Below are positions 18,004 to 34,360 of a DNA stretch of 64,000 bases, one piece after another (the stretch's first letter is position 1; the number at the start of each line of letters is the position of its first letter). This DNA is from an uncultured Hyphomonadaceae bacterium (GTDB lineage Bacteria > Pseudomonadota > Alphaproteobacteria > Caulobacterales > Hyphomonadaceae). Position numbers and translations under genes: made by a program. The stretch is from NCBI GenBank assembly GCA_938084575.1, contig CALKFG010000004.1, positions 62,001 to 126,000 of the forward strand. Reading direction: 5' to 3'. Under the pieces are notes generated by a model that saw nothing but the letters and a program-made list of their open reading frames with translations, was not told the origin of the DNA and made no database searches.

Positions 18004-18670
18004 GCAGCGCGCTGAGACTGCGCGCCGGAACTGGGCATTGAGTCAGCGTGCATGCAGGTGAACGTCGTGGCCGCGGCGGGGCGCGCAGGGTCCGGGCCGC
18101 GGTCCCGGTCAGCCTTCAGATGGCCCTCCCGTCAAAAGGCCTTCCGTCTGCCGCTCCCGGGAGGACAGACGGCGTTTCGCCGGACCGGAGACCGGGAAAA
18201 GTCATCAAAAACCGCGGCTTGACGCCTGATCTTTACCTGCCGCCTGAGCCCGGCTGGCGACGATCAGGCCTGTCCCAAACCGAACCTGTCGTCGTATATT
18301 GACCAAGTCAGGTTTATCCAATGTCTTCGTTATGCATCACAAATATACTGGACTTGGTCACTGTATTGAGCGGAGGTCGGACAAGTATCGAAGACGGGCG
18401 GCGGTCGCTCAGGACGCGCGGCGCCGGTCCTCTGGCGCGGTGAGGTCACGTCCCCCCACCAGGTTTTCCGGGCCAGGAAGGTCTTCACGCGGCTCCGGCT
18501 TTTGGCGTTTGACACCCTCAGATACGGGCTTTTGGCGGGGGGCTTCCCTAGGGTCAAGATATCTAGTCGACCCGCGAGGGAAAATTTCCAGCGCCGCGCG
18601 GAATGGACAGAAAAGGCGGCGTGAATAGCCGCGGCTGGATTAAAACGCGTCCCATTTACTCCTATTCAGC
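18004..18670. other. Non-coding tract between guaA and the pepsin-like gene
   Basis: No convincing gene is seen: the open frames at 18048-18302 and 18299-18628 have no ribosome site, no domain and a composition unlike the neighbours. A stem-loop CCGTCTG (18144-18150) / CAGACGG (18166-18172) contains CCCGGG in its loop. The short word GGCTTTTGGCG recurs near 18500 and 18530. The base composition changes from GC-rich to AT-rich at about 18640. The tract could hold a small RNA or be the remains of decayed sequence. Confidence 0.5.
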
Positions 18671-18834
18671 TTGGTAAGTACACCAATTTAAATAGCAATA
18701 ACAATAAAAGATCTACTGCAATCAATACTCAGAAGGGTGGTATGAATCTGTCTGCAATCCCCGAAAGAAAAGGGATCCACATTTCATAAGTGGTGACCAA
18801 AAAATAACACCGCCGCAAAGGCGGAATTCGGAGG
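18671..18834 (+). promoter_or_regulatory. AT-rich leader of the pepsin-like gene with inverted repeats
   Basis: An inverted repeat TTGGT-N6-ACCAA (18671-18686) sits in a locally AT-rich region that would suit a promoter or operator. A small stem-loop CCGCC-GCAAA-GGCGG (18810-18824) follows, directly before the ribosome site CGGAGG (18829-18834), eight bases from the ATG at 18843. The hairpin is close enough to affect ribosome access. No -35/-10 pair can be assigned with confidence. Confidence 0.4.
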
Positions 18835-18842
18835 CAATAAGA

Positions 18843-20207
18843 ATGCGGAACTCCATCAATCATGTGGGAAAATGTGTGGCGGCGGCTGTGGGAGGGTGTC
18901 TTGCTGTGTCGTTTGCGGCAACGGCCCAGGTATCGGAGACGACCGGGTTTCAGTCGACAACGTGGCACAGTCCCGATCTATGCAACGCGCAACCGATCAA
19001 GGTCGATTTCGATCGCGGGCCGATGTCGGATTATGGCGCATCTCCCTGGTTTACCAATGACCTGCAAGTCGGACTCAGTCCGATGCGGTTCATTTTTGAT
19101 ACCGGGACGACCCTGCTGTGGGCGACCACAGACGTCTGCGATACGCCGGCCTGTCTCAATCACGAGCGGGTGAACACGGCCCAGCCTGGCCTGACCTGGC
19201 TGTATAAGCCGGACGGCGGCATCGAGGTGAATTTTGGCCCCTGGGGCAAAATGTATGTCTGGCTGGCGGCCGCTGATTTTTACTCTGCGGCGCTTGGCTC
19301 AATTGTGAATCTCGTTTTTGACGGATCGATCAAATATACCGGCAACCAGTTTGGTGACCTGGCCTGGGATGGCGGCATCGGCTTTCCATCGGAGTCGACC
19401 GATGTGTCGCAGGTCTCGTTCTTCTTTGGACAGCTGGTCCAAACCCTCGGCCTGTCCCCGTCTTTTTCCATGTATGGCAAGGATGCCAATGGCAAAGGGG
19501 CCACAATTCTGGGCGGCACCAATCCGGAAATGTACGAGGTTTCCAGTCAGGTGCTCCTCACGCCCAAGAAAGGGGCGTCACCGGGGGTCGGCTATCTTTG
19601 GGGAACCCCGCTTCACGAGGTCCGCTTTGGGGGCCGGGTGGTGCCTGGCCTGACCAACCAGACTTTTTTCATCGACAGTGGCTCGTCCCGTTTCAAAGGT
19701 GATGGGACTTATATCTACCCCATGCTGAACGTGCTGGTCGGGCTCAAGGACGCTCAGGGAAATCTGATCTTCGACAAGGTCTATGAGACCGTTAACGGTG
19801 ACCAGGCCTGGGCCGGACTGATCTATCGCAATGGCAAGGGGCCGCAGGACTATGTCGGCATCCTGCCCGATCTCAGCCTCGAAATGGGCCAGTCCTGCGG
19901 GGGTCATCTCGGCGACCAGCTGCGGCTCGACCTGTCGCCGGAGCAATATTCCTACAAAGTCGACATCGGCGAACGGGCCGGCCAGTACATGATTGCCATG
20001 CACCGTCTCGACGGGGTCGGCGGCCTGCTGGTCGGATCCACGGTGATGGACCTCGTTTACACCAATTTCAACTATACCACCCACCCGGATGGCTCGTTCA
20101 GCCAGGGCAATATGTACCTGTACCGCAAGACGCAGGGCGAACAGCCCAAGGGTTACACCTGCCTGCCGCAGTTCGACGTCAGCGTGCCTGACTATCCTAA
20201 CAACTAG
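18843..20207 (+). CDS. Secreted pepsin-like (family A1 type) aspartic protease homolog
   Basis: Predicted exported 454-residue protein: an N-terminal signal peptide (about 1-28, ending FAATAQ), then one bilobal pepsin-like domain. The first active-site motif is FIFDTGTTLLWATT (Asp86), close to pepsin FDTGSSNLW. The second is FFIDSGSSRF (Asp278), 192 residues later (183 in pepsin). The hydrophobic-hydrophobic-Gly partners are recognisable as AWDGGIGFP and GGLLVGSTVMD, and ATILGGTNPEMY resembles the pepsin LFGGID turn. The flap Tyr appears replaced by Phe131 (EVNFGPWG). There is no obvious propeptide. Pepsin homologs are rare in bacteria (for example shewasins). It may be a protease or an inactive binding protein; both aspartates are present. 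It is followed after 62 bases by the avidin-like gene on the same strand. Confidence 0.8.
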   Translation: MRNSINHVGKCVAAAVGGCLAVSFAATAQVSETTGFQSTTWHSPDLCNAQPIKVDFDRGPMSDYGASPWFTNDLQVGLSPMRFIFDTGTTLLWATTDVCDTPACLNHERVNTAQPGLTWLYKPDGGIEVNFGPWGKMYVWLAAADFYSAALGSIVNLVFDGSIKYTGNQFGDLAWDGGIGFPSESTDVSQVSFFFGQLVQTLGLSPSFSMYGKDANGKGATILGGTNPEMYEVSSQVLLTPKKGASPGVGYLWGTPLHEVRFGGRVVPGLTNQTFFIDSGSSRFKGDGTYIYPMLNVLVGLKDAQGNLIFDKVYETVNGDQAWAGLIYRNGKGPQDYVGILPDLSLEMGQSCGGHLGDQLRLDLSPEQYSYKVDIGERAGQYMIAMHRLDGVGGLLVGSTVMDLVYTNFNYTTHPDGSFSQGNMYLYRKTQGEQPKGYTCLPQFDVSVPDYPNN

Positions 20208-20269
20208 CAGACGGGCCGGCCGGGACATCCGGGGGGGGCGGTCGGACCGCTTTCAAGATGGAGACCAAA

Positions 20270-21232
20270 ATGACACTTAAACCCTCGTTTCGCAGCGTGG
20301 CCGCCGGCCTTGGGCTGACCCTGATGGCCAGCCTTCTCCCCGCCATGGCGCATCCGCTCTCGGGCACCTGGCACAACAGCTATTGCTCGCGGGTCGATCT
20401 GTCCGTTGGCGAGGATGGCGTGGTGACCGGCGTGTATACGTCCCATACGGGCAGCACCGGATCCTCTCAGGTCATTGGCTGGGTCGATCCAACAGCGGTG
20501 GCGCCGACCCCGCCGCGGACCAATGTCAAAGGTATCCCGTTCAGCCTCGACATTCAGTGGCGTCTAATCAACAAACCGGTTTCCGAAGCCGATGGAAGCT
20601 GGCACTGGGTCTCAGGGTTTTCCGGTCAGTATCACCCGGCCCAGACGATCTCGGAGCCGAACCAGGACTCCTACGCCATCCCGGAAACCCTCGAACTGCT
20701 GAATGTGCTCGAGGCATCGTCCACGGTGGCAGGCTTTGCCGATACCGCGCCGATCATGTGGCCACAGACGCTGCACTTCACCCGGACGGCCCCGAATTAC
20801 TGTTCCAGCGTGACGCCGGGCCGGCCGGTGCCCTTTACCAACAGTGCCGAGGACATGGTGTCGGGAACCTGGGCGATCGCCGGCGGACTGGAGCTGGAGC
20901 TGACAGCAGATCCGACGACCGGACGGGTAACCGGGAAGGCCACTCTGCCGGGCGCACCTGCCTTGCAGGTCATCGGATTGTATGACCGGCTGGCCCCGAG
21001 CCTGACGCCGACGTCCCGGGTCGCCGAGCAGGCGGTGACGCTGACCCTGTTCGACCCGAATTATGCCTGCGAGCTCAGCACCGGGCCGGGCATCTTCTGG
21101 GTTGCCGGTGGCGTCTCTTACACCCGCCCCAGCCAGCTGGATCTCTGGATGGGCACGATGCAATCGACCGGTTGGACCGACCGGTTTACGCAGGAGACAC
21201 TGTCACGCGTCCAACTGTCACGGGTGAACTGA
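20270..21232 (+). CDS. Secreted protein with two streptavidin-like domains
   Basis: The 320-residue product has a signal peptide cut near PAMA-H28. Domain 1 (about 29-178) matches streptavidin: SGTWHN..S keeps the residues aligned with biotin ligands Asn23 and Ser27 (Asn36, Ser40), TGVYTSHTG keeps Tyr43 and Ser45 (Tyr56, Ser58), Trp97 aligns with Trp79, and FSGQY (117-121) matches WSGQY with Phe for Trp92. The C-terminal Asp128 equivalent is lost (LHFTR). Domain 2 (about 196-320) has the fold pattern SGTW...GRVTGKATL without the ligand residues. Cys39, Cys178 and a late Cys may form disulfides. The ATG at 20270 has GGAG six bases upstream; the ATG at 20258 is less likely. Biotin binding is possible but unproven. 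It probably shares a transcript with the pepsin-like gene. Confidence 0.75.
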   Translation: MTLKPSFRSVAAGLGLTLMASLLPAMAHPLSGTWHNSYCSRVDLSVGEDGVVTGVYTSHTGSTGSSQVIGWVDPTAVAPTPPRTNVKGIPFSLDIQWRLINKPVSEADGSWHWVSGFSGQYHPAQTISEPNQDSYAIPETLELLNVLEASSTVAGFADTAPIMWPQTLHFTRTAPNYCSSVTPGRPVPFTNSAEDMVSGTWAIAGGLELELTADPTTGRVTGKATLPGAPALQVIGLYDRLAPSLTPTSRVAEQAVTLTLFDPNYACELSTGPGIFWVAGGVSYTRPSQLDLWMGTMQSTGWTDRFTQETLSRVQLSRVN

Positions 21233-21255
21233 TCTCCCCCGTGACGGTGGGGGCC

Positions 21256-21295
21256 GGAGGGGGTCGCCCAAAGTCAGCTTCGACTGACCCCCTCC
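21256..21295 (+). terminator. Long GC-rich hairpin after the avidin-like gene
   Basis: A perfect 10-bp outer stem GGAGGGGGTC / GACCCCCTCC encloses a short inner stem AGTC / GACT with loop AGCTTC. No U-run follows, so alone it is a weak terminator, but it could protect the 3' end of the message. Confidence 0.5.
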
Positions 21296-21355
21296 GTGAT
21301 CACCCGCAGATGCGACGCAGAACAGGGCGGTCCCTGCCGTCTCTGTTCCCAACTG

Positions 21356-21389
21356 GACCGACCTGCGGATCTTGCAGGTCGGTCATTTT
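21356..21389 (+). terminator. Rho-independent terminator of the pepsin-like/avidin-like operon
   Basis: A perfect 11-bp stem GACCGACCTGC / GCAGGTCGGTC with a 7-base loop is followed by ATTTTG. It ends the plus-strand transcript 20 bases before the stop of the convergent regulator gene. Confidence 0.75.
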
Positions 21390-21409
21390 GATCCGGCTGA
21401 GGCCGGGGC

Positions 21410-24106
21410 TCAGTCGATCAGATCAAGCTCCTTGGCGGTGGTGACGGCCTGAACACGGCGCGAGACCTTAAGCTTGGAGAAGACGTTTTTGAGGTGAAAT
21501 TTCACCGTGTTTTCGGTCATGTCCAGCGCGATCGCGATCTCCTTATTCGACCGCCCGAGCGCCAGTTCATCAAGAACCTGTAATTCCCTGTCGCTGAGCA
21601 ACTGGCTGTTGCGCCGGTCCCGGCCCAGCACATCGTTGAGAAAGGTGATGATTAGGGGTGCATTTTCATCATTGCTGATCCGGCCACGCGCCGCGCGCAG
21701 GATCCGAATGGTCTCCGGGCCGCGAAATGGCGCCCGGAACTCTGATGCGGCCGCCAGCTTGAGGGCCGGAACAATCGCAGCAATGGCATCTGACCGCTTC
21801 TTGAAGGCGTCGAGAACCATGGCCTTGGTCAGCAGCGCGCGGACGGCAAAAAACGGCGCGTCGACCCGCCGGGCAATTTCATGCGCCCGATTGGCATACA
21901 GCATCGCATCCTTCGGATTTCCGATCCGGGACAGATAGCTGGCACAGGCCGAGGAGGAGGCAAACACCACCTGCCAGGTTGGGACATACAGCCGGCGGGT
22001 ATCCTCGACGGCCTGCATCCGGGTGCGCTCGAAGGTGCGGGCGGCGGCACGCATCTGGTCGGTGCGTAAAAGGTAGTTCAGCTCACACGCCGTGGCCATC
22101 TGATCGAGCCGGGCCACGCCCCGTTCAGACGCGGTGTCCCGCATCTGCTCGATCAGGTCTCCGGCGATGTCCGGCGTGTCACCGGACAGGGCATGATGAA
22201 GCAGGGCGTCAAAGCCGAGGGCGAAGCTCTCAAACCAGCCATCGCGCCTGCGGACATGGGTCAGGGACCGGCGCAGCGTCTGTATCCCGGATCCGTCGAG
22301 CTGGCCGCGCCAGTAGCGCAGCGCATTGAAATGCAGGTCTGCCGCGTATTTGAGTCCGCTGTCCGCGCCGAAATTGTCGTGCGCCATGTCAACGGCCCGC
22401 TCGACATGGGTCAGGGCCCGCTGCAAGTCGCCGCGGAAATAGCTGATCAGGCCAAGATGCAGGTAACAGTAATTCAGCCCGAGAAGGGAATTTCCCTCGC
22501 GCATGGATCGTGCCGCCAGACCGGCCTGTTCCTCGGAGTCGCCAAACAGGCCGAACCCCGCCAGGCGCAGGGTGAGATTGCACTGCATCACGCCGCGTGA
22601 AATCGGATCATCGTCCCGCACCTCTGCGAGGGCCTGGTCGAGGAAATGATTGTCGGGATCGGACAGACCCTCATCCTCATACGCTTCCAGAAGGGCGCGC
22701 ATATTGATCTGATCCCGCAGCATGTCCGCATTTCTGGGATCAAACGCCCTCGACCGGGAGGCGGCGTCGAAATAGGCGCGGGCGAGGCGGATTTCACCGC
22801 GTTTCATCGCCAGGTAGCAGCGGGCAAACTGCAGCCGGGGCCAGGGCTGGAAATCCGCGTTTGGAAAACTGCTCAGCAAGCCTTCGAGGTCGCCTGTGCC
22901 GCCAAACAGGACCAGCTCCCAGCCGCCGGCCTGGCAGATCAGGTCGGCGCACAGCGCCACCTGTCCCGCCTTGGCCGCGTGGTGGACCGCATCGCCATAC
23001 TGGCCCCGGTCGCCCAGCCATTTGGCGGCCCTCAGGTGCAGTGTCTGATAGTCATCGCCATGGCGCTGGCGCAGCAGGTCCTGCAGGCATTCCGCAAACA
23101 GGTGATGATAACGGAAATGTTCATGCGTATCGTCAAGCGGGACCAGCAGGGCATGCAGGGGTGCCAGTGCCTTGAGATACTGGCGGCTGTCGGTCTGGGC
23201 ACAGACGGCATCGGCGAGGTCGGCATCGAATGTATCAAGGATGCTGGTCCGCAGGACGAAATCTTGCAGGGCCGGGCTGAGCTGACTGATCACCTGATCG
23301 GTCAGATAGGCGGCGAGGTGCCCGGTATGGCCATGCAGACCGGCAATGGTCTCGGCCTGGTCCTGCGCGCTGTCCAGCATCAGGCGGGCCAGCTGGACCG
23401 CAACCGGCCAGCCCTCCACCTTGCGCTGCAGGCCGATGAGAAGGCGGTCATCGAGTGCAAGTCCGAAGGCCTCGCGGACCTCCGCATCGCTGAAGCGGAG
23501 ATCGGACCCTGTCAGCTCAACGCCCTCGCCGGCGACAATCAGCGTCGACAGATCGCCGCCGGGTCGGTTGCGGGAACTCAGGCAGAGGCCGAAATTGCCA
23601 TTGCAGCTGGCCAGAATGTCGAGCAGCAGACGGTCGAGCAGAGGAGAGGCAATAAGGTGGTAATCGTCTAACATCAGCACGACGCGGTCCGGCGTGGTCT
23701 GGAACCACTCTCCCAGCTGGTTGACGATCTGGCGCGTCGGTGTGCCGACAAGGCCGGATTTGGCGGCGACGGCCAGCGCCCCCAGTTCGAGGCCGGCATG
23801 GGCCAGGGCGAGGATCAGATAGGAGAGCAATTGCTGCGGCTCGGCATCCGACGTATCAAGGCTCAGCCAGGCCGTCGGCTGGCCGGCCTGGACCCTGGCA
23901 GCATGGAGCTGGGCCAGTGCGATCGATTTGCCAAAGCCGGCCGGTGCCGAAACCAGCACAAGACGAAATTCGGTCGCCTGCGTCATCTGATAGATCAGGT
24001 GTGGCCGGTCAATCAGGTTGACCGACAGGGAAGGGGGGCTCAGCTTTGCCTTCAGGCGCCATTCCGGCAATCCGAGTGATATGTCGAAAGGGACTTTATC
24101 GGTCAT
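21410..24106 (-). CDS. LuxR/MalT-type ATPase transcriptional regulator (LAL)
   Basis: Large ATP-binding LuxR-family regulators of the MalT/AlkS type are usually inducer-dependent activators. The 898-residue protein has a P-loop APAGFGKS (54-61), a Walker B-like strand VVLMLDDYHL, a winged-helix/helical region, a long TPR-like helical sensor region (about 350-820) and a C-terminal LuxR helix-turn-helix with LSDRELQVLDELALGRSNKE and TENTVKFHLKNVFSKL (about 830-890). It converges with the pepsin-like/avidin-like operon and diverges from a membrane-protein gene, so regulation of these neighbours is plausible but inferred. A GGGGATGGGA sequence near 24327 only loosely resembles a MalT box. Confidence 0.92.
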   Translation of the reverse strand: MTDKVPFDISLGLPEWRLKAKLSPPSLSVNLIDRPHLIYQMTQATEFRLVLVSAPAGFGKSIALAQLHAARVQAGQPTAWLSLDTSDAEPQQLLSYLILALAHAGLELGALAVAAKSGLVGTPTRQIVNQLGEWFQTTPDRVVLMLDDYHLIASPLLDRLLLDILASCNGNFGLCLSSRNRPGGDLSTLIVAGEGVELTGSDLRFSDAEVREAFGLALDDRLLIGLQRKVEGWPVAVQLARLMLDSAQDQAETIAGLHGHTGHLAAYLTDQVISQLSPALQDFVLRTSILDTFDADLADAVCAQTDSRQYLKALAPLHALLVPLDDTHEHFRYHHLFAECLQDLLRQRHGDDYQTLHLRAAKWLGDRGQYGDAVHHAAKAGQVALCADLICQAGGWELVLFGGTGDLEGLLSSFPNADFQPWPRLQFARCYLAMKRGEIRLARAYFDAASRSRAFDPRNADMLRDQINMRALLEAYEDEGLSDPDNHFLDQALAEVRDDDPISRGVMQCNLTLRLAGFGLFGDSEEQAGLAARSMREGNSLLGLNYCYLHLGLISYFRGDLQRALTHVERAVDMAHDNFGADSGLKYAADLHFNALRYWRGQLDGSGIQTLRRSLTHVRRRDGWFESFALGFDALLHHALSGDTPDIAGDLIEQMRDTASERGVARLDQMATACELNYLLRTDQMRAAARTFERTRMQAVEDTRRLYVPTWQVVFASSSACASYLSRIGNPKDAMLYANRAHEIARRVDAPFFAVRALLTKAMVLDAFKKRSDAIAAIVPALKLAAASEFRAPFRGPETIRILRAARGRISNDENAPLIITFLNDVLGRDRRNSQLLSDRELQVLDELALGRSNKEIAIALDMTENTVKFHLKNVFSKLKVSRRVQAVTTAKELDLID

Positions 24107-24302
24107 GCGAAGGCTCCGCGTTTCGTGCCACCCGAGAGATTCGTCAGACGTGCGGCGCCGCCAGAACAGCGCGGGCCCGCCCTTTTAGGAGGGCTCCGGA
24201 ACACGGCATACCTACTCGTTTGGGTGGATGGCTGTTTCATTTCGGGTCCCTAGACTGTGCTGTATCAGACAAGCTCGGGCCGGACGGGGCCGGAGTGTGC
24301 TG

Positions 24303-24328
24303 AACCGGGTGGGTCAAAACCGGGTGGG
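24303..24328 (+). repeat. Two 11-bp direct repeats before the small membrane protein gene
   Basis: AACCGGGTGGG occurs at 24303-24313 and again at 24318-24328, period 15, in the 236-base gap between the divergent regulator and membrane-protein genes. It may be a regulator binding site; the rest of that gap contains only GC-rich sequence with a short GCCCT/AGGGC hairpin near 24180. Confidence 0.4.
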
Positions 24329-24342
24329 GATGGGAGCGCGTC

Positions 24343-24711
24343 ATGCCGGACCTGTCATTCCTTGCTTTCGTCTATATCGGACTGGCCCTCGGCTATAATG
24401 TCCTCAGCCTGATCTGGAGGGGTGTGGCGGGCCAGACGCTGGCCCCCACCGACCCGCAGCGTGGCCTGCAAGTCGTGACACTGGTCTACCTGACCCTGAT
24501 TGTGGCCCGCGATCTGGCCCCGGTCAGCGGGCAGCTGGTGCTGCTGGTCTGGGTTCTGGTCATCGCCTGGTTCGGTGTCTGGGCCCATCTGCGTCCAGAC
24601 CCTGAGCGGCATTATGCCGGCCCACTGGCGCGCTGGGCCGCGGTGATCATCAATCTTTACGGCGTCATTGTTATAACGTTGTCTGTATTTTCTCATCTGA
24701 AACAAGGATAG
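24343..24711 (+). CDS. Small multi-pass membrane protein, unknown function
   Basis: The 122-residue product is largely hydrophobic with about four predicted transmembrane helices: SFLAFVYIGLALGYNVLSL, VVTLVYLTLIVARDL, LVLLVWVLVIAWFGVW and WAAVIINLYGVIVITLSVF. The loop between the third and fourth contains HLRPDPERHYAGPL. I do not recognise a family. The start at 24343 has GGGGATGGGAG as a possible ribosome site. It lies between the LuxR-type regulator and a TonB-dependent receptor gene and is followed by an AT-rich 210-base gap. Confidence 0.65.
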   Translation: MPDLSFLAFVYIGLALGYNVLSLIWRGVAGQTLAPTDPQRGLQVVTLVYLTLIVARDLAPVSGQLVLLVWVLVIAWFGVWAHLRPDPERHYAGPLARWAAVIINLYGVIVITLSVFSHLKQG

Positions 24712-24921
24712 AGAATAAAATAAAAAAGTAAAACGCTACTTGTGGGGGTAGTGTAATAAAAAGGAACCCACTCGAATTCATATCTTTACTAATACTGTAT
24801 TGGGCGGTTGGGTCGTGACTGATGGTGCGCTTCCTGTGCCCGGGGTCTGCGAAGCGGGCCCGGTCGTATGGGGCAGCTTGTTTGCCGGATCATCTGAACA
24901 AGACTTTTGGAGGAAGTAAAA
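24712..24921 (+). promoter_or_regulatory. AT-rich upstream region of the TonB-dependent receptor gene
   Basis: The first 90 bases are A-rich and contain an imperfect inverted repeat ACGCTAC/GTAGTGT around TTGTGGGG near 24732-24753. A GTGGG/CCCAC pair spans about 24741-24773. The ribosome site GGAGG lies about nine bases before the ATG at 24922. This is the likely promoter zone of the receptor and perhaps the catabolic genes behind it; no specific operator can be named. Confidence 0.4.
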
Positions 24922-27111
24922 ATGTCTTTTTGTCGAACACATGGCGGGCGCCGGGCGCTGATGGCCGGGACCTTTCTGTCCGGGTGCCTGGCCGTCGGGG
25001 CCTTGGCCGCACCGGCCACAGCACAATCCGGGGAAGACGACGCCCTGGTTCAGGACAGGATCCTGGTAACGGCCCGGAAAATCCAGGAGGATATTCAGGA
25101 TGCGCCGCTCAGCGTCACGGCCTTTTCTGAAGAAGCGATCCGGGAAGCCGGCATTGGGGAGACCGCTGATTTCATTGCGCTGACCTCCAATGTTACCCTG
25201 GCGGAGTCACAGAGCATCTCAACCGCTTTCCTGACCATTCGTGGCCTGACGCAGGTTCGCAATGGCGAGATGCCGGTGGCGGTTATCGTCGATGATGTGC
25301 TGCAGTTCAACAATCGCCAGTTTGTCGGCCAGCTGTTCGACGTGGCGCAGATCGAAGTGGTCAAGGGACCCCAGGGCGCGCTGTATGGACGGAATGCCAC
25401 GGGCGGCGCCATTATTATCAACACCAAGGCGCCCGGCAATGAAACCGAGGGGTATTTCGGGCTCGGGGTTGGCAATGGCGAGGAAATGTCGGCTGAAGGC
25501 AGCGTCTCTGTTCCGCTGATCGAAGACCAGCTTTTCGCCAAATTGTCCGGCCGTGTTGTCAGCCGCGAAGGCTATTACACCAATGTCACCCGCAATGACA
25601 CGGACGATCCCTATTTTGACCGGGCCCTGCGCGGCCGGCTGCTGTGGACCCCCAGTGATGATCTGACATTGGACCTGATCGGCAATTTCGGGCGCCACAA
25701 TGGGCGTGGCATCGGCTTCCAGTTTGGCGCTGCGGGTGCGGACGATACGTCCTTACCCTTCGTGGCCAACAATGAGGATGTCGGGGAGCGTCAGACCCAG
25801 GGCATTTCCCTGCGCATCGAAAAGGAGCTGGACTGGGCGACCCTGACGTCGGTGACCGCGTGGGACCAGCTGACCAGCCTGACGCGGGCCGATCAGTTCC
25901 CCTATTCTGCTCTGGCCAATGGTGTGGATACGGTGCCATTCGGAGACGGAACGCAAAGCCAGTATACCGACATGGAATCCTGGAGTCAGGAAGTTCGCCT
26001 GACCTCCGCGGCGGACGGTCCTCTGCGCTGGCAGGTCGGCGCCTATTATCTCGACTGGGAGCGGTTCATTTCGTCAACCGTGGGCACTGATCTGGGCAAG
26101 GGCATCAAGCGGGTTGAGCGGACGCCTTTCCTGACCGACGCGACCAATCCGACCGTGTCTTTCTTTGCCGATGATAATGACAATGACGCCTGGGCCGTTT
26201 TCGGTCAGCTCAGCTATGACATTACCGACCAGCTGGAACTTAACATTGCCGGACGGTACGATGAGGAAAAACGCCGGCAGGCTGTGTCTCCGCTGAATAC
26301 ATCCGGAGTGCCCGGAGCCAGTAACAAGGCGACCTTTGACAAATTCTCGCCGAAAGTGACGCTCCGGTACATGCCACATGACACGATCACCCTGTATGGC
26401 AGCTGGGGCGAGGGCTTCCGGTCGGGCCAGTTCAACCAGAATGGCACCGCGGCCGCGGCGCAGACCGCCGGTATTCAGGGTGTCCAGGACATTGTCGATC
26501 AGGAAGAGTCGCAATCCTGGGAGCTCGGGTTCAAGACCGACCTGTTCAACGACCGCCTGCGGCTCAACGGGGCTTATTTCGACACCAAGGTCGAGGGCCA
26601 GCAATATTTCGTCTTTATCGGCGATATCGGCGCCCAGGTCCTGCTCAATATCGATGAGGTTGACATCGACGGATTCGAGCTCGAGGCGATCTGGCGGGCG
26701 GTGGACGGTCTCGACCTGTACGCCGCTTATGGGCAAACCAATTCCAAGGTCAAAGCCTATACCACGGATCCGAGTCTGGTCGGAAACAAGGCGCCGTACG
26801 TGCCGGATGAAACCTTTAATGCCGGATTTCAGTGGACAGCGGGGCTGAACCCGGACTTCGACCTGGTTACGCGTGTCGATTATGAGCGGCGCGGAGAGCA
26901 GTTCTGGTCGCCGGACAATACCGCGCCACGCTCGCCGCTCGACTTGGTGAATGCGCGCGTCGCCCTTCAAAAGGCCGATGGCCAGTGGGAGCTCGCGCTT
27001 GAGGCCAAGAATTTGACCGACGAGTCGTATAATTCGGAATTTGTCCTTCCGGCATTTTCCCACAAGGCCAACCCTCGCAGTGTGCGGGCGAAGCTGCGGT
27101 ACAATTTCTGA
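24922..27111 (+). CDS. TonB-dependent outer-membrane receptor
   Basis: This gated beta-barrel imports a ligand across the outer membrane using TonB energy. From the ATG at 24922 (GGAGG upstream) there are 729 residues: a signal peptide ending ALAAPATAQ; a TonB box-like ILVTARK; a plug domain (about 50-170) with NVTLAESQ, FLTIRGLTQ and VEVVKGPQGALYGRNATGG in variant form (IEVVKGPQG); then a 22-strand barrel ending in the canonical aromatic C-terminus LRYNF. It resembles the alphaproteobacterial iron-complex-type receptor group, which in practice covers many small substrates. The neighbourhood suggests an organic substrate of the hydantoinase cluster rather than iron. A terminator follows. Confidence 0.95.
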   Translation: MSFCRTHGGRRALMAGTFLSGCLAVGALAAPATAQSGEDDALVQDRILVTARKIQEDIQDAPLSVTAFSEEAIREAGIGETADFIALTSNVTLAESQSISTAFLTIRGLTQVRNGEMPVAVIVDDVLQFNNRQFVGQLFDVAQIEVVKGPQGALYGRNATGGAIIINTKAPGNETEGYFGLGVGNGEEMSAEGSVSVPLIEDQLFAKLSGRVVSREGYYTNVTRNDTDDPYFDRALRGRLLWTPSDDLTLDLIGNFGRHNGRGIGFQFGAAGADDTSLPFVANNEDVGERQTQGISLRIEKELDWATLTSVTAWDQLTSLTRADQFPYSALANGVDTVPFGDGTQSQYTDMESWSQEVRLTSAADGPLRWQVGAYYLDWERFISSTVGTDLGKGIKRVERTPFLTDATNPTVSFFADDNDNDAWAVFGQLSYDITDQLELNIAGRYDEEKRRQAVSPLNTSGVPGASNKATFDKFSPKVTLRYMPHDTITLYGSWGEGFRSGQFNQNGTAAAAQTAGIQGVQDIVDQEESQSWELGFKTDLFNDRLRLNGAYFDTKVEGQQYFVFIGDIGAQVLLNIDEVDIDGFELEAIWRAVDGLDLYAAYGQTNSKVKAYTTDPSLVGNKAPYVPDETFNAGFQWTAGLNPDFDLVTRVDYERRGEQFWSPDNTAPRSPLDLVNARVALQKADGQWELALEAKNLTDESYNSEFVLPAFSHKANPRSVRAKLRYNF

Positions 27112-27154: not shown

Positions 27155-27245
27155 ACCTTCGCTGCCGGACAGATCCGAGATCTCGCCCGGCAGCGGTTCT
27201 TTTTCTTCGCCCGCCGTGAAGGACGTGTCGCATGACCAAGCCCGC

Positions 27246-28940
27246 ATGACCCAATCGCAAGGCCTCCGAACGGTCGACCCTGTAACGGTGGAAGTCCTGC
27301 AGCAGTCCCTTGTTGCGATCACGGACCAGATGTTCGCCGTCACCCGGCGAACCGCGATGAGCTCGGTGATCTATGAGGTTCTGGACTTCGGTGTCGCGAT
27401 CACGGACGGGGACGGCGCTCTGGCCAGCGCCGGGGCGGGTATTCCGGCTTTTGTCGGCATGCTGGATCCCGCGGTACGGGCCGTTCTGGCCAAATATGCC
27501 TGTGACGAGATTCAGGAGGGAGATGTCTTCATCTCCAATGATCCGTATCGCGGCGGGGTCAGTCATACCAATGATGTTGTTGTGTCCATGCCGGTTTTTC
27601 ACGACGGGATGCTGGTCGCCTGGACCGCGAACAAAGGGCATTGGATGGACATTGGCGGCTCCGCGCCAGGAAGTACGTCGCCGGACGCGACGGAATTGTT
27701 TCAGGAAGGCCTGCTGCTTCCTGAAGTGAAAATCATCGCGGCCGGGGCCCTCAACAAGGCCCTGTTTGCCACCATGACTGCCAATAGCCGGCTCCCTGAT
27801 CAGCTGCGGGGGGATTTCTGGGCTGCGATTGCTTCTGTCCGGCTTGGTGCGGAGCGCATCCGGCAATTGTGTCACCGGTATGGGAGGGAGGTGTTTCGTG
27901 CCGCCGTCCGGGATTATCTTGAAACCGCCGAACAGCAGGCGCTGCGGGGGCTCGCTGCCATGCCACAGGGGCAGTTTGAGGCGCATGACAGGCTGGATGA
28001 TGGTCGGCCGCTGCATGTGCGCGTGACGATTGAGGGGCAGCGGTTCACCGTCGACCTGACCGGAAATCCGGACCAGGAACCAGGGCCGCTCAATGCCACG
28101 CATGACGCGACCGTTGTCAGCGCCCAGGCCATGTTCAAGAGCCTGGTTGCCCCGCATGGCCCGGCCAATGCCGGGACCTTCCGGCCACTGCGTGTCCTGA
28201 CCCGGGAGGGGTCGATGTTCGCGGCCACCCGTCCTGCGGCCACCGGGCTCTACTATGAAAACAAGCTGCGGGCCTCTGACCTTATTCTTAAGGCGGTTGC
28301 CGGGGTGCTGGCGCAGGGGCGTGCGGCGGGTCATTTTTGTTCCGTCTGTGCAACCTTGATTGGCCAGGCCGACCCCGGTCAGCCGGGGCGCAGCTTCATT
28401 GAACCCGAGGTTGGGGGGTGGGGCGCGCGCATCGACAGCGACGGCAAAACAGCCATGTTCTCGACGTCGCATGGCGATACCTTCACCTGTCCGGTTGAAG
28501 TGAACGAGGCCCGGAATGGGATCGAGGTGGAGCGCCTGGCCCTGAATGACAGTGCCGGTGGCGCCGGGACGTTTCGAGGCGGGCGGGGCATCGATTTGCG
28601 GTACCGTATTCTGGCTCAGACGGGCTGGGTGACGGCCGCCTATACCCGCTCGACCGTGCCGCCCTGGGGGCTGGCCGGCGGGCATGAGGGGACCGTGAAC
28701 ACGCTGCAGATTGTGCGCACGACAGGACAGATGGAAACGCCCGGACGGGCGGCCTCGCTGCCCTTGCAGCGTGGAGATCTGGTCTGGATTCTCACCGGCC
28801 AGGGTGGCGGCTATGGTGATCCGCGCCAGCGGGACCGCAAGGCTGTCATCGACGACCTAAAAAATGGCTATATCACGCGGGCTGAAGCTCTTGGCCCCTA
28901 TGGGCTGCGTGACCGCGACATTGACGGGGTGACAGCGTGA
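27246..28940 (+). CDS. hyuB: Hydantoinase B/oxoprolinase family protein (first copy)
   Basis: HyuB proteins act with HyuA in ATP-dependent opening of hydantoin, 5-oxoproline or N-methylhydantoin type rings, or in related carboxylases. From the ATG at 27246 there are 564 residues with family motifs RRTAMSSVIYEVLDFGVAI, SNDPYRGGVSHTNDV, NKGHWMDIGGSAPGS and the C-terminal GQGGGYGDPRQRD. A GTG at 27216 could extend the start by ten codons. An 18-base mini-frame (27232-27249, five codons) ends in the ATGA that begins this gene, and AAGGA precedes it. The MFS gene overlaps its stop by four bases. It is one of two HyuB genes here. Confidence 0.92.
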   Translation: MTQSQGLRTVDPVTVEVLQQSLVAITDQMFAVTRRTAMSSVIYEVLDFGVAITDGDGALASAGAGIPAFVGMLDPAVRAVLAKYACDEIQEGDVFISNDPYRGGVSHTNDVVVSMPVFHDGMLVAWTANKGHWMDIGGSAPGSTSPDATELFQEGLLLPEVKIIAAGALNKALFATMTANSRLPDQLRGDFWAAIASVRLGAERIRQLCHRYGREVFRAAVRDYLETAEQQALRGLAAMPQGQFEAHDRLDDGRPLHVRVTIEGQRFTVDLTGNPDQEPGPLNATHDATVVSAQAMFKSLVAPHGPANAGTFRPLRVLTREGSMFAATRPAATGLYYENKLRASDLILKAVAGVLAQGRAAGHFCSVCATLIGQADPGQPGRSFIEPEVGGWGARIDSDGKTAMFSTSHGDTFTCPVEVNEARNGIEVERLALNDSAGGAGTFRGGRGIDLRYRILAQTGWVTAAYTRSTVPPWGLAGGHEGTVNTLQIVRTTGQMETPGRAASLPLQRGDLVWILTGQGGGYGDPRQRDRKAVIDDLKNGYITRAEALGPYGLRDRDIDGVTA

Positions 28941-30301
28941 CCGCGCCACGTCCCAGCCTCGCTTATGCCTGGTACACGGTCGGTGTCCTGATGCTGGCCT
29001 TTTTGCTGTCCTATGTCGATCGGTCCATCATGTCGCTTCTGGTCGATCCCATCCGGCGTGACCTGGCCCTGTCCGACACCCAGATCAGCCTGTTGCACGG
29101 GTTTGCTTTCGCAGTCTTCTATGCGGCCTTTGGCTTGCCGCTGGGCCGCCTGGCTGACCGGACCCACAGGGTCCGGCTGATCGTGGCGGGTGTCACGCTG
29201 TGGAGCCTGTTTACCGCTGCGTGCGGTCTGGCGCGGAATTTCTGGCAGCTTTTCGTAACCCGTATGGGCGTGGGGGTCGGAGAGGCGGCCTTGAACCCAA
29301 GCGCCTATTCGATCATCACGGATTCCTTTCCGCGGCATTTGCTGGCCCGGGCGCTGAGTACCTATGTTATGGGAACCTATATGGGGTTCGGCCTGGCCTT
29401 CATCATGGGCGGGATGGTGGTGCGCCTTGTCGAGGCCATGCCGACCCTTGTCCTGCCCCTGCTTGGAGAGGTTTACACCTGGCAGCTGGCCTTTTTCTAT
29501 GCCGGATTGCCGGGCCTTTTCGTGGCGGCGATGATCTTTTTGACCCTGCGCGAACCGGCGCGCCGCGGACGGGTCCGGGACACGCCGTCGGCAGCGGCGG
29601 CGCCGGCCGTTCCACTGCGCGAGGTTGTGGCTTTTATTGGCCAGAACCGGCGGACACTGATCTGTCATCTCGGTGGCTTCAGCCTGATTGGTATCCTGGT
29701 CAACGGACTGGTGCTGTGGACGCCGTCCTTTTTTCACCGGACCTATGGCTGGGAGGTCGCAGATGCAGGGGTTGCCTATGGCACGATCCTGCTGCTGGCG
29801 GGACCGATGGGGATCTTCGCCGGTGGCGCCCTGTCGGACTGGCTGGATCGCAAGGGACCGGCGGGCGGCAGCTTCCTGACTGCGGCGGTGTGCGTCGGCT
29901 GCGCCATTGGCCCGGCAATTGCCAGCCCGCTGGTGGACAATCCGGGCCTGGCCATGAGTCTGATCGCTGTCCTGGTCTTTTTTACCAGTGCGCCCTGGGG
30001 CGTAGCGGTTTCCGCCATTCAGCAGATCACGCCGAATGAGATGCGGGGCCAGGTTTCGGCAATCTATCTGTTCGTGGTCAATTTTATCGGAATTGGCTTC
30101 GGTCCCACCGTGGTGGCGCTGATCACGGACCAGGTTTATGGCGACGATGCCGCGCTGCGCTATGCACTGTCCTGGGTCGGCGGAAGTGCGGCTCTGGCCG
30201 CGATGGTCCTGCTCCTGTCAGGGCTGGGCGCGTTTCGGGCCAGCGCGCGGCGGGCCGAGGCCTGGGTATTGCCCGCCACGGAAGGCAACTCTCCCGGGTA
30301 G
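28937..30301 (+). CDS. MFS transporter, spinster-like
   Basis: A predicted 12-helix inner-membrane transporter of 454 residues. The first helix has YVDRSIMSLLVDPIRRDLALS and the loop between helices 2 and 3 has the MFS signature GRLADRTHRVRLI. GVGEAALNPSAYSIITD in helix 5 is typical of the spinster-like group, and the later half repeats the pattern (GALSDWLDRKGP). The GTG start overlaps the hyuB stop (GTGA), so it is translated with it and probably moves the substrate or product of the hydantoinase pathway across the inner membrane. Direction of transport is unknown. Confidence 0.92.
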   Translation: MTAPRPSLAYAWYTVGVLMLAFLLSYVDRSIMSLLVDPIRRDLALSDTQISLLHGFAFAVFYAAFGLPLGRLADRTHRVRLIVAGVTLWSLFTAACGLARNFWQLFVTRMGVGVGEAALNPSAYSIITDSFPRHLLARALSTYVMGTYMGFGLAFIMGGMVVRLVEAMPTLVLPLLGEVYTWQLAFFYAGLPGLFVAAMIFLTLREPARRGRVRDTPSAAAAPAVPLREVVAFIGQNRRTLICHLGGFSLIGILVNGLVLWTPSFFHRTYGWEVADAGVAYGTILLLAGPMGIFAGGALSDWLDRKGPAGGSFLTAAVCVGCAIGPAIASPLVDNPGLAMSLIAVLVFFTSAPWGVAVSAIQQITPNEMRGQVSAIYLFVVNFIGIGFGPTVVALITDQVYGDDAALRYALSWVGGSAALAAMVLLLSGLGAFRASARRAEAWVLPATEGNSPG

Positions 30302-30513
30302 GTTTCAGGCTTTGGTTCCAGCGTAAGCTGAAGAGACAGCTTAACCGACACCGGACCTGCCCAAACGGCCCGGCGGGTGTGTCTCGGAGCATGGCGGCGA
30401 CCGGCTTCAGGCGGGCCCCGTTTCAGGCGGCGCGAGAGGAAAGGGCCAGACCGGAGCGCGCGGCCAGAACCAGAAGACCAGAAAGACGAAAAAGAAAAAT
30501 AGAGGAAATTTGG

Positions 30514-32610
30514 ATGTCGAGAATACGCCTGGCCACAGATGTCGGAGGCACGTTTACGGATCTTGTATACTATGAAATTGACGAGGACTCCGGCCAGATC
30601 GCGTCCTTCAATTCCGTAAAGGCCCACACCACCCCCCCCCATTTCGAGAAGGGGGTCATGGAAGCGGTTGCCCGGGCAGGCCTGGCGCATGAGGATGTCG
30701 AGGTCTTTGCCCATGGCACGACCGTGGTGATCAATGCACTGACCGAGCGCAAAGGCGTCCGCACCGCACTGATCACCACGCAGGGGTTCCGGGATATTCT
30801 CGAAATCGCCCGCGGCAACCGGCCGGATTTCTTTAACCTGCGCTATCGTAAGCCGGAACCCTTCGTGCCGCGCTATTTAAGGCGGGAAATCCCGGAGCGT
30901 CTGAATTATCGCGGTGAGGTCCTCAAGCCGCTCGACCTGAGCGGCCTCGAGGACATGATGACCGAGTTCAAGGCGGAAGGGGTTGAGGCGATCGCGATCT
31001 GCCTGCTGCATGCGTATGCCAATCCGGATCATGAACAGGCTGTCGCCGCAGAGGTCCGGCGCCTGTGGCCAGAGGTGGCCATCGTTGCCTCCCACCAGAT
31101 TACGCGGGAATGGCGGGAATATGAGCGGACCAATACCGCCGTCCTGTGCGCCTATGTGCAGCCGATCGCACAGGATTATCTCGGTCGCATGGAGGACCAG
31201 CTCAGTGCGTCAGGGTTTAAGGGAGCGTTTTATGTCATGCAGTCTAATGGCGGCATTGATACGCTCAGCGCCGCCCGGGCCACGCCTATCTCCATGGTCG
31301 AATCCGGACCGGCAAGTGGGGTTCTGGGGGCCGCGGCGCTTGGTCGCCTGATTGGGGAGAACAATGTCATTGCTCTCGATATTGGCGGGACAACGGCGAA
31401 ATGCTCCCTGATTGACCATGGCCGTGTCGAAATCACCAGCCAGTATATGATTGAACAGAGCCGCCTGTCGGCAGGCTATCCCATCATGACGCCCGTCGTC
31501 GACATCGTTGAGATCGGCAATGGCGGCGGTTCGATTGCCTGGGTCGATGCGGATGAGAAATTGCATGTGGGCCCGCGCAGCGCCGGGGCCATGCCCGGGC
31601 CGGTTGCTTATGGCCAGGGTGGAACCGAACCAACCACCACCGACGCCAATCTGATGCTGGCGCGGATCAATCCCCATTATTTCATCGGCGGCGAGATTGA
31701 AGCCGATCTCAATGCGGTCGGCGCAGCCTTTGGCCGGCTTGGGGACCGGCTTGGCCTGTCCGCTGAGGATGCGGCGCGGGGCGTTATCCGGATTGCCAAT
31801 AATAATATGATCAACGCCCTGAAGCTGGTGTCGATCAATCGCGGCTATGACCCGCGGGATTTCACCATGATCGCTTTTGGCGGTGGGGGGGCCATGCATG
31901 CCACCGCGCTGGCACGGGAGCTGAATATTCCGAAAGTGGTCATTCCGGCCCATTCGGCGGTGTTCTCGGCCTGGGGCATGCTGGTGTCAGATTTGAGACG
32001 GGATTATATACGGACCCATCCGATGCGGCTCTCGGACGATGCGGCCGGGCCCATCGGCGCCACGTTTGCAGAGATGGAGGATGAAGCTCTGCAGGCCTTC
32101 CTGGCGGACCGGATTGCCAAGGATGCCATCTATTATGAGCGCTATCTCGACCTGCGATATGAAGGTCAGGAACATTCTGTTCGTGTCCCGGTTCCCTGTG
32201 TAAGGATCACCAAGGACATCCTGAAAGAGATCATCGCTCGGTTCCATGAAGCCTATGAGCGGGAATATACCTACCGGCTCGACAATGCGGTTGAACTGGT
32301 CACTTTTCACCTGGTCGCTTTCGCCCGGATCGACCGGCCGGATTTGGCCCGATTGCCTTCCGACAACACGGCCGAAGACGCCATCAAGGGACGCCGGGCG
32401 GTCGATTTCGACACCGACGGCATCTGCGATACGCTGATCTATGACCGCGACCGGCTGGATGCGCAGACGACCCTGAGCGGCCCGGCCATCATTGAAGAGG
32501 CTGGCAGCACGACGGTGGTCTTTCCCGGGCAGATGGTCCGGGTCGATGATTACGGAAATCTTCACATTACCATTGAGGAGGGCAGGCATGGCGCTCGCAC
32601 AACGGATTGA
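30514..32610 (+). CDS. hyuA: Hydantoinase A/oxoprolinase family ATPase subunit
   Basis: HyuA is the actin-fold ATPase partner of HyuB in ATP-dependent cyclic-amide hydrolysis. The ATG at 30514 (AGAGGAA upstream) gives 698 residues beginning RLATDVGGTFTDLVYYE, the first phosphate-binding loop; further motifs are FAHGTTVVINALTERKG, VESGPASGVLGAA, ALDIGGTTAKCSLI and AFGGGGAMHATALA. The C-terminal third (FDTDGICDTLIYDRDRLDA onward) matches the family end. A longer open frame from 30379 is lysine/arginine-rich and not family-like. The 211-base gap after the MFS gene could hold a separate promoter. The second hyuB starts 23 bases before this gene ends. Confidence 0.94.
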   Translation: MSRIRLATDVGGTFTDLVYYEIDEDSGQIASFNSVKAHTTPPHFEKGVMEAVARAGLAHEDVEVFAHGTTVVINALTERKGVRTALITTQGFRDILEIARGNRPDFFNLRYRKPEPFVPRYLRREIPERLNYRGEVLKPLDLSGLEDMMTEFKAEGVEAIAICLLHAYANPDHEQAVAAEVRRLWPEVAIVASHQITREWREYERTNTAVLCAYVQPIAQDYLGRMEDQLSASGFKGAFYVMQSNGGIDTLSAARATPISMVESGPASGVLGAAALGRLIGENNVIALDIGGTTAKCSLIDHGRVEITSQYMIEQSRLSAGYPIMTPVVDIVEIGNGGGSIAWVDADEKLHVGPRSAGAMPGPVAYGQGGTEPTTTDANLMLARINPHYFIGGEIEADLNAVGAAFGRLGDRLGLSAEDAARGVIRIANNNMINALKLVSINRGYDPRDFTMIAFGGGGAMHATALARELNIPKVVIPAHSAVFSAWGMLVSDLRRDYIRTHPMRLSDDAAGPIGATFAEMEDEALQAFLADRIAKDAIYYERYLDLRYEGQEHSVRVPVPCVRITKDILKEIIARFHEAYEREYTYRLDNAVELVTFHLVAFARIDRPDLARLPSDNTAEDAIKGRRAVDFDTDGICDTLIYDRDRLDAQTTLSGPAIIEEAGSTTVVFPGQMVRVDDYGNLHITIEEGRHGARTTD

Positions 32611-34273
32611 TACACCGGTCGCGTTCGACCCGATTACGAATGAAATTATTCAGAGCTCGCTGACGGCGATCACCGACGAAATGTTCGCGACGATGCGCAA
32701 GACCGCCATGAGCTCGATCATCTACGAGGTGCTCGATTTTGGTGTGGCCCTCTTCGATGCCGAGGGCCAGCTGGCCAGCTCCGGGTCGGGTATTCCGGGC
32801 TTTATTGGTATGCTGGAGCCCGGCGTGAAAGCGATATTGCAAAAATATGATGGTGCGCAGGATATTCGGCCAGGTGATATTTTCATGACCAACATGCCGC
32901 ATTTCGGTGGGGTCAGTCATCTGAATGATGTCGTTTTGATCATGCCGATTTTCGTTGAGGGACGGCCTCTGGCCTGGCTGTCCAACAAGGCGCATTGGGT
33001 TGATGTCGGCGGCGCTTTTCCCGGAAGCATCAATCCCGAAGCTGTGGATGTGTATCAGGAAGGCCTGCAATTGCCGGAAATCAAGGTGATTGAGGCTGGG
33101 CAGCCGAATCAGGCGGTTCTGGACATTATCGCCATGAATACACGGATCCCCGAGACGACAATGGGGGATTTCTGGGCCGGTGTTGCATCTATGCGTGCCG
33201 GCGAGAAGCGCATGCAGGCGATTGTCTCGAAATATGGCCGCGAGGCCGTTGAGTATGCGATTTCCGATTATATCGCGCTGGGGGAAGCAATGGCGCTTCG
33301 GACACTGGCGACCCTGCCAATGGGCGATTATCATGCCGAGGATACGCTGGATGACGGCCGCAAGGTCCAGGTCACCATACAGATCCGGGACAAGGATTTC
33401 ATTGTCGATTTGCGCGGGAATCCGGAGCAGACACAGACGGCCCTGAACTGCTCTTATGACGCCACAATGGTCGACGTCCAGATGATCTTCAAGGCCATCG
33501 CCGACCCTCAGGATTTTGCCAATTCGGGGACGTTCAAGCCGCTCAAGCTGCTGGTCGATGAGGGGTCAATGTTTGCGGCGACCTATCCGGCTGCCATGAG
33601 CGTTTATTATGAGGTCAGCATGATCCTGCTCGACCTGCTCTGGAAGGCGCTTGCGCCGAGCATGAAGAACAGTTTTCCGGCCGGTCATTATGCCTCCATT
33701 TGCGGGACCTTCCTCGGCGGCCCGCATGAAGACGGGCATGCCCACTCGATTGTCGAGCCTCAGCTGGGAGGCTGGGGCGCGAGCCATGACCGGGACGGCC
33801 TGAACGCGCTCTATACGGGCTATCATGGCGACACGTTCAACTGCCCGGTTGAGGTTACCGAGCAGAAAAACGGCCTCATGGTCGACCGTCTGGCGCTGTC
33901 GACCCAGGCCGGCGGAGAGGGTGAGTTTCTCGGCGGCAAGGGGATAGAGCTGGACTATCGGATCCTGCGCGATGGCTGGTGGTTGACCATGGCCTATAAC
34001 CGGTCCCGGCAGGGCCCCTGGGGTCTCGAGGGCGGTTTGAGCGGGTCCACCAATCATGTGGTGGTGCATCGAGCTGGCGGTCAGGGGCAGGAGCGCTACA
34101 GCGCCTGCACCGCCCTGACCCTGAATAAGGATGATGTCGTGAAGGTCTTCACGGCCAATGGAGGCGGGTATGGTGATCCCAAGCGTCGCGGCCTGAAACA
34201 GGTCCGCGCGGATGTCCGCAATGGCTATATTACGCCGGTCCAGGCGCGGGAGGTGTTTGGTGTCGCCCTGTAG
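32588..34273 (+). CDS. hyuB: Hydantoinase B/oxoprolinase family protein (second copy)
   Basis: This is the HyuB partner coded directly with HyuA. The ATG at 32588, with GAGGAGGG upstream, lies inside the hyuA 3' end (23-base overlap), which is strong coupling. The 561 residues align with the first copy throughout: RKTAMSSIIYEVLDFGVALF, TNMPHFGGVSHLNDV, NKAHWVDVGGAFPGS, and GNGGGYGDP in the form ANGGGYGDPKRRG near the C-terminus. The motif NMPHFGG differs from NDPYRGG of the first copy, so the two copies may recognise different ligands. Confidence 0.94.
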   Translation: MALAQRIDTPVAFDPITNEIIQSSLTAITDEMFATMRKTAMSSIIYEVLDFGVALFDAEGQLASSGSGIPGFIGMLEPGVKAILQKYDGAQDIRPGDIFMTNMPHFGGVSHLNDVVLIMPIFVEGRPLAWLSNKAHWVDVGGAFPGSINPEAVDVYQEGLQLPEIKVIEAGQPNQAVLDIIAMNTRIPETTMGDFWAGVASMRAGEKRMQAIVSKYGREAVEYAISDYIALGEAMALRTLATLPMGDYHAEDTLDDGRKVQVTIQIRDKDFIVDLRGNPEQTQTALNCSYDATMVDVQMIFKAIADPQDFANSGTFKPLKLLVDEGSMFAATYPAAMSVYYEVSMILLDLLWKALAPSMKNSFPAGHYASICGTFLGGPHEDGHAHSIVEPQLGGWGASHDRDGLNALYTGYHGDTFNCPVEVTEQKNGLMVDRLALSTQAGGEGEFLGGKGIELDYRILRDGWWLTMAYNRSRQGPWGLEGGLSGSTNHVVVHRAGGQGQERYSACTALTLNKDDVVKVFTANGGGYGDPKRRGLKQVRADVRNGYITPVQAREVFGVAL

Positions 34274-34360
34274 GCGCCGGCCCGCCCGGCATCGTCGGGA
34301 CCGTGTCGGGTGCGGCAGACCGTCTGGCGGAGGCTGGTGGGTCACGATGTCTGGCTGGCT

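Follow-up and report, generated by a model that had tools for sequence, protein, structure and literature searches.

The window analysed here comprises 64,000 nucleotides (nt) from an uncultured Hyphomonadaceae bacterium (contig CALKFG010000004.1), belongs to a 2.33 Mb draft genome of 96% completeness (G000, the own genome) and contains a gene pair encoding a putatively secreted A1 (pepsin-type) aspartic protease of 454 amino acids (aa), P1 (18843-20207, + strand; Pfam PF00026, E 1.1e-9), and a putatively secreted 'extended' avidin of 324 aa with two predicted barrels, P2 (20258-21232, +; Pfam Avidin and Foldseek). Our tentative interpretation, to which we give slightly less than an even chance, is that the pair serves as an accessory for ligand capture in a catabolic locus that is linked to a regulator and acts on a cyclic amide, most probably a cyclic ureide with a five-membered ring. 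According to this interpretation the adjacent LAL (MalT-type STAND/LuxR) regulator, P3, would sense the compound and switch the locus on, a TonB-dependent receptor, an MFS transporter and an NCS1 permease, all recognised by family, would import it as their presumed cargo, and the likewise recognised subunits HyuA and HyuB would open its ring with ATP. The avidin, judged from its sequence and model, would bind the ring in barrel 1, with barrel 2 as its degenerate partner, and the protease may free or trim peptide- or protein-linked ligand, which is the simplest option for its role. The sequence-only reading of this region had ended the system with the regulator (18671-24106); these limits are too short and leave out the genes for TonB, HyuA/HyuB, MFS and NCS1, in which the best functional clue lies.

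Recurrence and gene neighbourhood

A scan of named genomes for extended avidins turned up 59 pattern matches, from which 13 loci (L015-L027) were obtained. HyuA (56-62% identical) and HyuB lie within ~10 kb of the avidin in 12 of them, an Asp/Glu/hydantoin racemase is present in 11, a P1-type protease is located upstream of or fused to the avidin in 11, and a LAL match stands beside it in 10, which makes the LAL a recurrent neighbour and bears out its earlier association with the pair. L026 has neither HyuA nor LAL, the stretches L019 and L022 end near HyuA, and at the edge of L017 only the C-terminal part of the LAL is left. In Pseudomonas the genes are arranged as LAL-HyuA-HyuB-racemase-MFS-fusion and in Novosphingobium as avidin-LAL-TonB-racemase-HyuA-HyuB, with an M24-type peptidase at the end of the plasmid locus, while the order in L023, from the metagenome-assembled genome (MAG) JA6.bin23, equals that of the window (avidin forward, LAL reverse, TonB and Hyu genes forward). 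The Novosphingobium plasmid locus, which was found via P2, encodes a LAL 35% and a TonB receptor 41% identical to those of the window. As a control, six other avidin-family loci (G079 and five that Pfam detected in the class sample, chosen by family irrespective of an extension, one with a 242-aa frame and one, L032, whose stretch stops at the contig end just after the avidin) showed HyuA, HyuB, LAL or protease in none of the six.

The protease itself is rare. P1-type proteases were detected in 5 of 398 genomes of a Pseudomonadota sample, the own genome included, and all five accompany an extended avidin, either fused (G510, G691, G782) or adjacent (own genome, G616), so that the view of the two proteins as belonging together holds. 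The phylum sample and the named-genome set overlap, L019 and L021 apparently representing the genomes G782 and G691. Among relatives, P1 occurs in 1 of 101 genomes, namely the own one (it is absent from the other 100), and P2 in 2, the second of which, G079, encodes a short avidin without protease. The recurrence survey, proposed along with the original suggestion as its refuting test, therefore turned out negative for relatives and positive across Pseudomonadota. The pair as a genus-typical trait was rejected on these counts together with those of HyuA, which at 1e-100 is found in 6 of 61 genomes of relatives when the own one is counted (best other 44% identical). A plasmid search with P1 returned no match up to E 1. 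Pfam Asp as a genome query hit 0 of 385 class genomes, a result that is uninformative because the own genome escaped it too. The own genome is small relative to the congeners searched (~2.4-4.3 Mb).

P3 (898 aa, 21410-24106, - strand; GerE, E 2.7e-18), confirmed as the convergent next gene, shows the composition of a LAL, i.e., an N-terminal STAND ATPase, TPR and a C-terminal LuxR HTH in ~900 aa: the HTH scores well above its cut-off, TPR_MalT and AAA matches remain below theirs, and the letters APAGFGKS are present. It shares this architecture with MalT, yet it reaches 258 bits against the NCBIfam MalT equivalog (cut-off 537), is accordingly not assigned to MalT itself, and groups with LALs that are linked to Hyu genes. 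LAL matches at 1e-40 occur in 29 of the 398 Pseudomonadota genomes, own included, and 20 kb around nine of these hits, plus stretches of G691 and G782, were inspected. Neither protease nor avidin accompanies the LAL-TonB-HyuA-HyuB-NCS1 cluster of G737 and G806, which is nearly that of the window (HyuA 64%, HyuB 63-64%, TonB 45% and NCS1 52% identical). TonB and Hyu-family genes are also found near the LAL of G767 and G041 (the G041 Hyu match being only 26%), and they are missing from the 20 kb around it in G137, G725, G585, G532 and G768. In a LAL tree of 24 rows a single branch with a support of 100/100 separates the nine Hyu-linked rows from all others, which none of 500 shuffles equalled. 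For this tree 6 of 30 sources gave no long open reading frame (ORF), further LAL hits such as those of G528 and G605 were left out, as was the LAL of G782 at a contig end, the neighbourhood was examined for 5 of the 15 'other' rows, and the program warned of long branches, the window's included, and of uneven composition. Only 1 of 72,556 plasmid records has this LAL at 1e-50, and there an extended avidin adjoins it. The LAL as a chance neighbour of the pair was rejected on the recurrence, the plasmid record and the tree. The core of the system seems to consist of LAL, TonB receptor and HyuAB, and because this core also occurs without protease and avidin, the pair is regarded as optional.

Two stretches show further neighbours of these genes. 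In L080 (762-8609) the avidin-less cluster of G806 adjoins another operon, which from sequence starts and gene order we take to be one for histidine utilisation; this adjacency was dropped as evidence, since the same-genus locus L079 lacks it. In L034 (11491-14169) an 892-aa AAA_16/TPR protein without HTH match, a STAND-like neighbour different from the LAL, starts ~30 nt after the G510 fusion.

The absence of the pair from the G737 and G806 clusters, the existence of three loci with the pair and without the core, and the origin of most supporting loci from one genus would also suit an explanation by hitch-hiking, in which the pair came to lie beside a LAL-HyuAB locus by shared descent or transfer and has no functional tie to it. 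We judge this to be unlikely, as the tie is kept in at least three arrangements (Pseudomonas, Novosphingobium, the MAG locus L023 and the window) with differing genes in between and appears in none of the six control loci.

The predicted avidin barrels and the pepsin-type protease

P2 matches Pfam Avidin with E 9e-5 and 23.2 bits, just under the gathering cut-off of 24 bits that its Pseudomonas homologue in L025 exceeds (30.8 bits), and it matches a streptavidin chain with E 3.6e-4. Its start is probably the ATG at 20270, just upstream of which GGAG is found. A structure was predicted from 14 aligned sequences (the window and L015-L027, also used for the residue columns) with a mean pLDDT of 72, and in Foldseek the 50 matches shown were all streptavidin entries, with a TM-score of up to 0.82 by target length, so that P2 is predicted to adopt the avidin beta-barrel fold. 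The top four matches are engineered single-chain dimeric streptavidin and extend over the whole length, with TM-scores of 0.64-0.68 by query and 0.76-0.80 by target. When the N-terminal half of the P2 alignment was compared with its C-terminal half by hhalign, a probability of 93.8 and a score of 44.3 were obtained, while the best score of a column-shuffle control was 10.6 among 192 scored (200 run); a Pfam search with four extended-avidin C halves gave no match. We thus predict that the C-terminal extension of these avidins folds as a second avidin barrel, which is degenerate, with approximate limits of 20348-20779 for barrel 1 and 20780-21229 for barrel 2 (both + strand).

For the biotin pocket we assume the streptavidin numbering and roles of N23, S27, Y43, S45, W79, W92, W108 and D128. 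Barrel 1 has the equivalents of N23, S27, Y43, S45 and W79 in every row (14 of 14), and we take these to be the residues that hold the ureido carbonyl and one NH in streptavidin. In barrel 2, with columns placed by alignment, the N, S and Y equivalents are present in none of the 14 rows. The W92 equivalent depends on the placement, as the profile pairs it with the invariant W87, whereas counting back from the GQ motif leads to Leu/Met/Phe.

P1 has the two D[TS]G motifs in a two-lobed chain that define family A1: the motifs DTG (D86) and DSG (D278) have both Asp residues invariant in 11 of 11 aligned rows, an alignment that leaves out the broken L023 copy, and the P1 profile aligns with chymosin over both lobes (E 5e-22). 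P1 also matches cathepsin E at 8e-12. The flap Tyr, Tyr75 in pepsin, is not conserved, the stretch aligned by sequence only being FGPWG, with Phe in place of Tyr. By hydropathy only, P1 and P2 each begin with a hydrophobic, Sec-like N-terminus.

Wherever it is present in the loci examined here, the protease lies upstream of or is N-terminally fused to the avidin, an arrangement which would also agree with a protease that only matures or trims its avidin partner, the two forming a unit independent of the catabolic genes. This we consider very unlikely. The profile finds no P1-type protease in the three avidin-carrying Novosphingobium records (two genomes and one plasmid, whose host chromosome lay outside the search), and the protease of L023 is broken or misassembled; the avidin therefore does not need the protease. 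In L023 (8700-13414) the protease is spread over several frames with a stop and shows no match over the second catalytic motif, and the LAL next to the intact avidin is in two frames as well. Because the LAL is also split, an error of the draft assembly and true decay are equally likely.

The combination of protease and avidin is itself already known, which overturns the earlier statement that no described system combines such parts. Fusions of A1 peptidase and avidin were published in 2021 for Pseudomonas, Oleiagrimonas, Nitrincola, a Cytophagales bacterium and Flexibacter (C-terminal there), and an unexplained C-terminal extension of ~150 residues was described for 'Extended' avidins (Laitinen et al., 2021, PMC8033661). 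These fusions, from the beta6 and 'Extended' clades, contain the same two domains, mostly in the same order, and the extension in their 'Extended' members; in contrast, the window pair is split, each gene has its own secretion-like N-terminus, and the extension is predicted here to be a second barrel. The paper reports mobile-element and defence terms for genes neighbouring bacterial avidins, its Results and first part of the Discussion contain no mention of hydantoinases or LAL regulators, and it states that the ecological role of bacterial avidins was never systematically studied and that experiments are required before a function can be given to its new clades (PMC8033661). In one open-access library, the fusion of aspartic peptidase and avidin in Pseudomonas was found, from 2021 on, only in Laitinen et al.; no paper there joins avidin, hydantoinase and gene cluster, neither tandem or natural single-chain avidins nor bacterial biotin degradation genes were found described, judged by titles and the beginnings of abstracts, and none of the 8 papers listed of 42 links hydantoinase to biotin or the ureido ring. 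The second barrel, the HyuAB/LAL neighbourhood and the common grouping of Hyu-linked LALs were hence not found in print. Engineered single-chain dimeric streptavidin (6s50, 6s4q) likewise has two avidin barrels per chain and is the best structural match, but P2 is natural and its second barrel has lost the carbonyl-binding residues; a second barrel would explain the unannotated extension and make it a natural counterpart of the engineered dimer. P1 shares family A1 with the shewasin-type bacterial pepsin homologues (PMC2761423; PMC4814920), of which those of PMC2761423 are reported without signal peptides, unlike P1 with its secretion-like N-terminus.

Substrate, ligand and competing explanations

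Homologues of the A and B subunits of ATP-dependent Hyu hydrolases lie side by side in the window. HyuA (30379-32610, +), whose homology begins near residue 49, has N-methylhydantoinase as nearest solved structure (5.9e-140), followed by 6yra (labelled 5-oxoprolinase, 1.1e-114). HyuB copy 2 (32492-34273, +) is likewise nearest to N-methylhydantoinase (3.1e-70), followed by 6yra (there labelled Hydantoinase, 1.5e-51), and HyuB copy 1 is found at 27216-28940 (+; PF02538, E 1.3e-149). The two HyuB copies flank the single HyuA, and copy 2 is nearer to HyuB of G737 and G806 (63-64%) than copy 1 (49%). We take 6yra to be the caprolactamase of PMC8453981. For that enzyme, ATP-driven lactam hydrolysis with the ATP site in one subunit and the metal site in the other is described (PMC8453981). 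N-methylhydantoinase and caprolactamase are both homologous to the window's HyuA/HyuB, which by score are nearest to the former and remain below the NCBIfam cut-offs for caprolactamase. The NCS1-family permease (34310-35680, +) matches cytosine permease (7qoa, E 7e-24), with NCS1 family matches below their cut-offs. Taken together, the proximity of HyuA/HyuB to N-methylhydantoinase and the permease match suggest that the substrate is a small cyclic ureide or amide, and barrel 1 looks able to hold the same.

The putative secretion of the pair is not a general feature. A secretion-like N-terminus was also observed in G510, and the homologues of Pseudomonas, Novosphingobium, Motilimonas and G616 have no hydrophobic N-terminus (measured for two Pseudomonas, two Novosphingobium, L023 and Motilimonas, otherwise judged by eye, with unsure starts in L021, L022 and L024). 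Given this difference, extracellular capture cannot be the common function of extended avidins, which argues for ligand binding as the shared one.

Several findings, the missing N-termini among them, weigh against the pair as capture arm of a cyclic-ureide locus. Pseudomonas accounts for 9 of the 13 loci and had also provided two of the scan's seed sequences, the others being the window and one Novosphingobium sequence. The protease-avidin loci of G510, G616 and Motilimonas have no HyuA or LAL match in 20 kb, from which it follows that the pair also occurs apart from the Hyu locus. HyuA of this type is widespread, with 920 plasmid records, whereas a P2 match is found in only one plasmid record. 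In all five plasmid neighbourhoods that were viewed HyuB accompanies HyuA, together with an M24-type peptidase in four of them and an Asp/Glu racemase in three; neither a racemase nor an M24 match is present in the window. In the pocket, no Trp is found near the W108 column in any of the 14 rows, and the column of D128, presumably the second ureido-NH acceptor of streptavidin, is Leu in 14 of 14; 13 of these rows carry an Asp two columns from it, and the remaining one, the window, carries Gln there. Finally, the P1 structure model is poor (pLDDT 51) and was left out of the analysis.

The secreted appearance of both proteins, the kept ureido-carbonyl residues and the lack of BioB over the cut-off in the own genome (27.9 vs 225 bits), when 11 of 17 congeners have BioB, fit a scavenging of biotin, in which the avidin would collect biotin, the protease would free it from biotinylated proteins, and the Hyu enzymes would be unrelated or handle spare biotin. 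Six of the 17 congeners, however, likewise have no BioB over the cut-off and the protease is in none of the 100 other relatives, tight binding would be expected to hamper release, the homologues of other genera have no secretion-like N-terminus, and the tie to HyuAB would be left unexplained; we therefore assign only a low probability to biotin scavenging. Laitinen et al. (2021, PMC8033661) suggested that the protease-avidin fusions have a role in defence or competition, with a secreted biotin-sequestering protein and a protease directed against rivals or grazers. This role agrees with the secretion-like N-termini in the window and G510 and with the loci that lack HyuAB, but the Pseudomonas and Novosphingobium forms have no such N-terminus, the neighbours are catabolic and transport genes, and the regulator groups with Hyu-linked LALs, so that it appears decidedly improbable to us.

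A wider form of the cyclic-ureide interpretation would regard 'extended' avidins as the ligand-binding part of regulated cyclic-ureide utilisation and not primarily as biotin weapons, with biotin or a biotin-like ureide as ligand, HyuA/HyuB as candidate openers of the ureido ring and the pepsin-type partner releasing protein-linked ligand; this extension we put forward as doubtful. The tie of avidin type, regulator group and ring-opening enzyme supplies a functional hypothesis that can be tested in tractable strains of Pseudomonas and Novosphingobium, and it hints that some bacterial avidins may help to use small ring-shaped nutrients, not only to lock up biotin.

Layout and transcription signals of the locus

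P1 and P2 are consecutive on one strand, as had been stated, and their ORFs and families were confirmed. The gap between them is 50-62 nt, the range being set by the choice of the P2 start. A terminator-like hairpin with T tail lies between the convergent genes (21356-21390, +; stem-loop scan and folding energy): the stem-loop at 21356-21384, followed by ATTTT, has -24.2 kcal/mol and a z of -4.6 and is matched by 0 of 200 shuffles, and the predicted strong terminator after the pair thereby found support. Terminator-like sites are frequent in the window (10 vs 5.1 expected), and this hairpin has the longest stem. The short gap and the strong hairpin after P2 fit the predicted common transcript of P1 and P2. 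The stretch 5' of P1 is AT-rich, as claimed (GC 0.51, with surroundings mostly at 0.57-0.66), but its 'promoter-like' label did not hold beyond composition, because a promoter scan of 18300-24950 gave one site vs 1.6 expected, on the opposite strand and within P1. The regions upstream of P1 and of the TonB gene have no common regulatory motif (one shared 8-mer vs 1.4 expected), and those upstream of the LAL and TonB genes share two overlapping 9-mers, which 12 of 200 shuffles reach as well.

Past the LAL the locus continues with a small ORF, TonB receptor, HyuB, MFS, HyuA, HyuB and NCS1 up to ~35.7 kb. The TonB-dependent receptor is encoded at 24907-27111 (+; PF00593, E 1.4e-48), its start being perhaps an ATG 15 nt further in, after GGAGG, and the MFS transporter at 28937-30301 (+; PF07690, E 3.7e-42). 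The ORF between LAL and TonB receptor (24343-24711, +) encodes a small hydrophobic, membrane-like protein of 122 aa that neither exceeds the cut-off of any family nor has a match in the related loci searched. Where the cluster ends, an alanine dehydrogenase gene (35663-36772) is convergent to the NCS1 gene and may or may not be a member of the locus.

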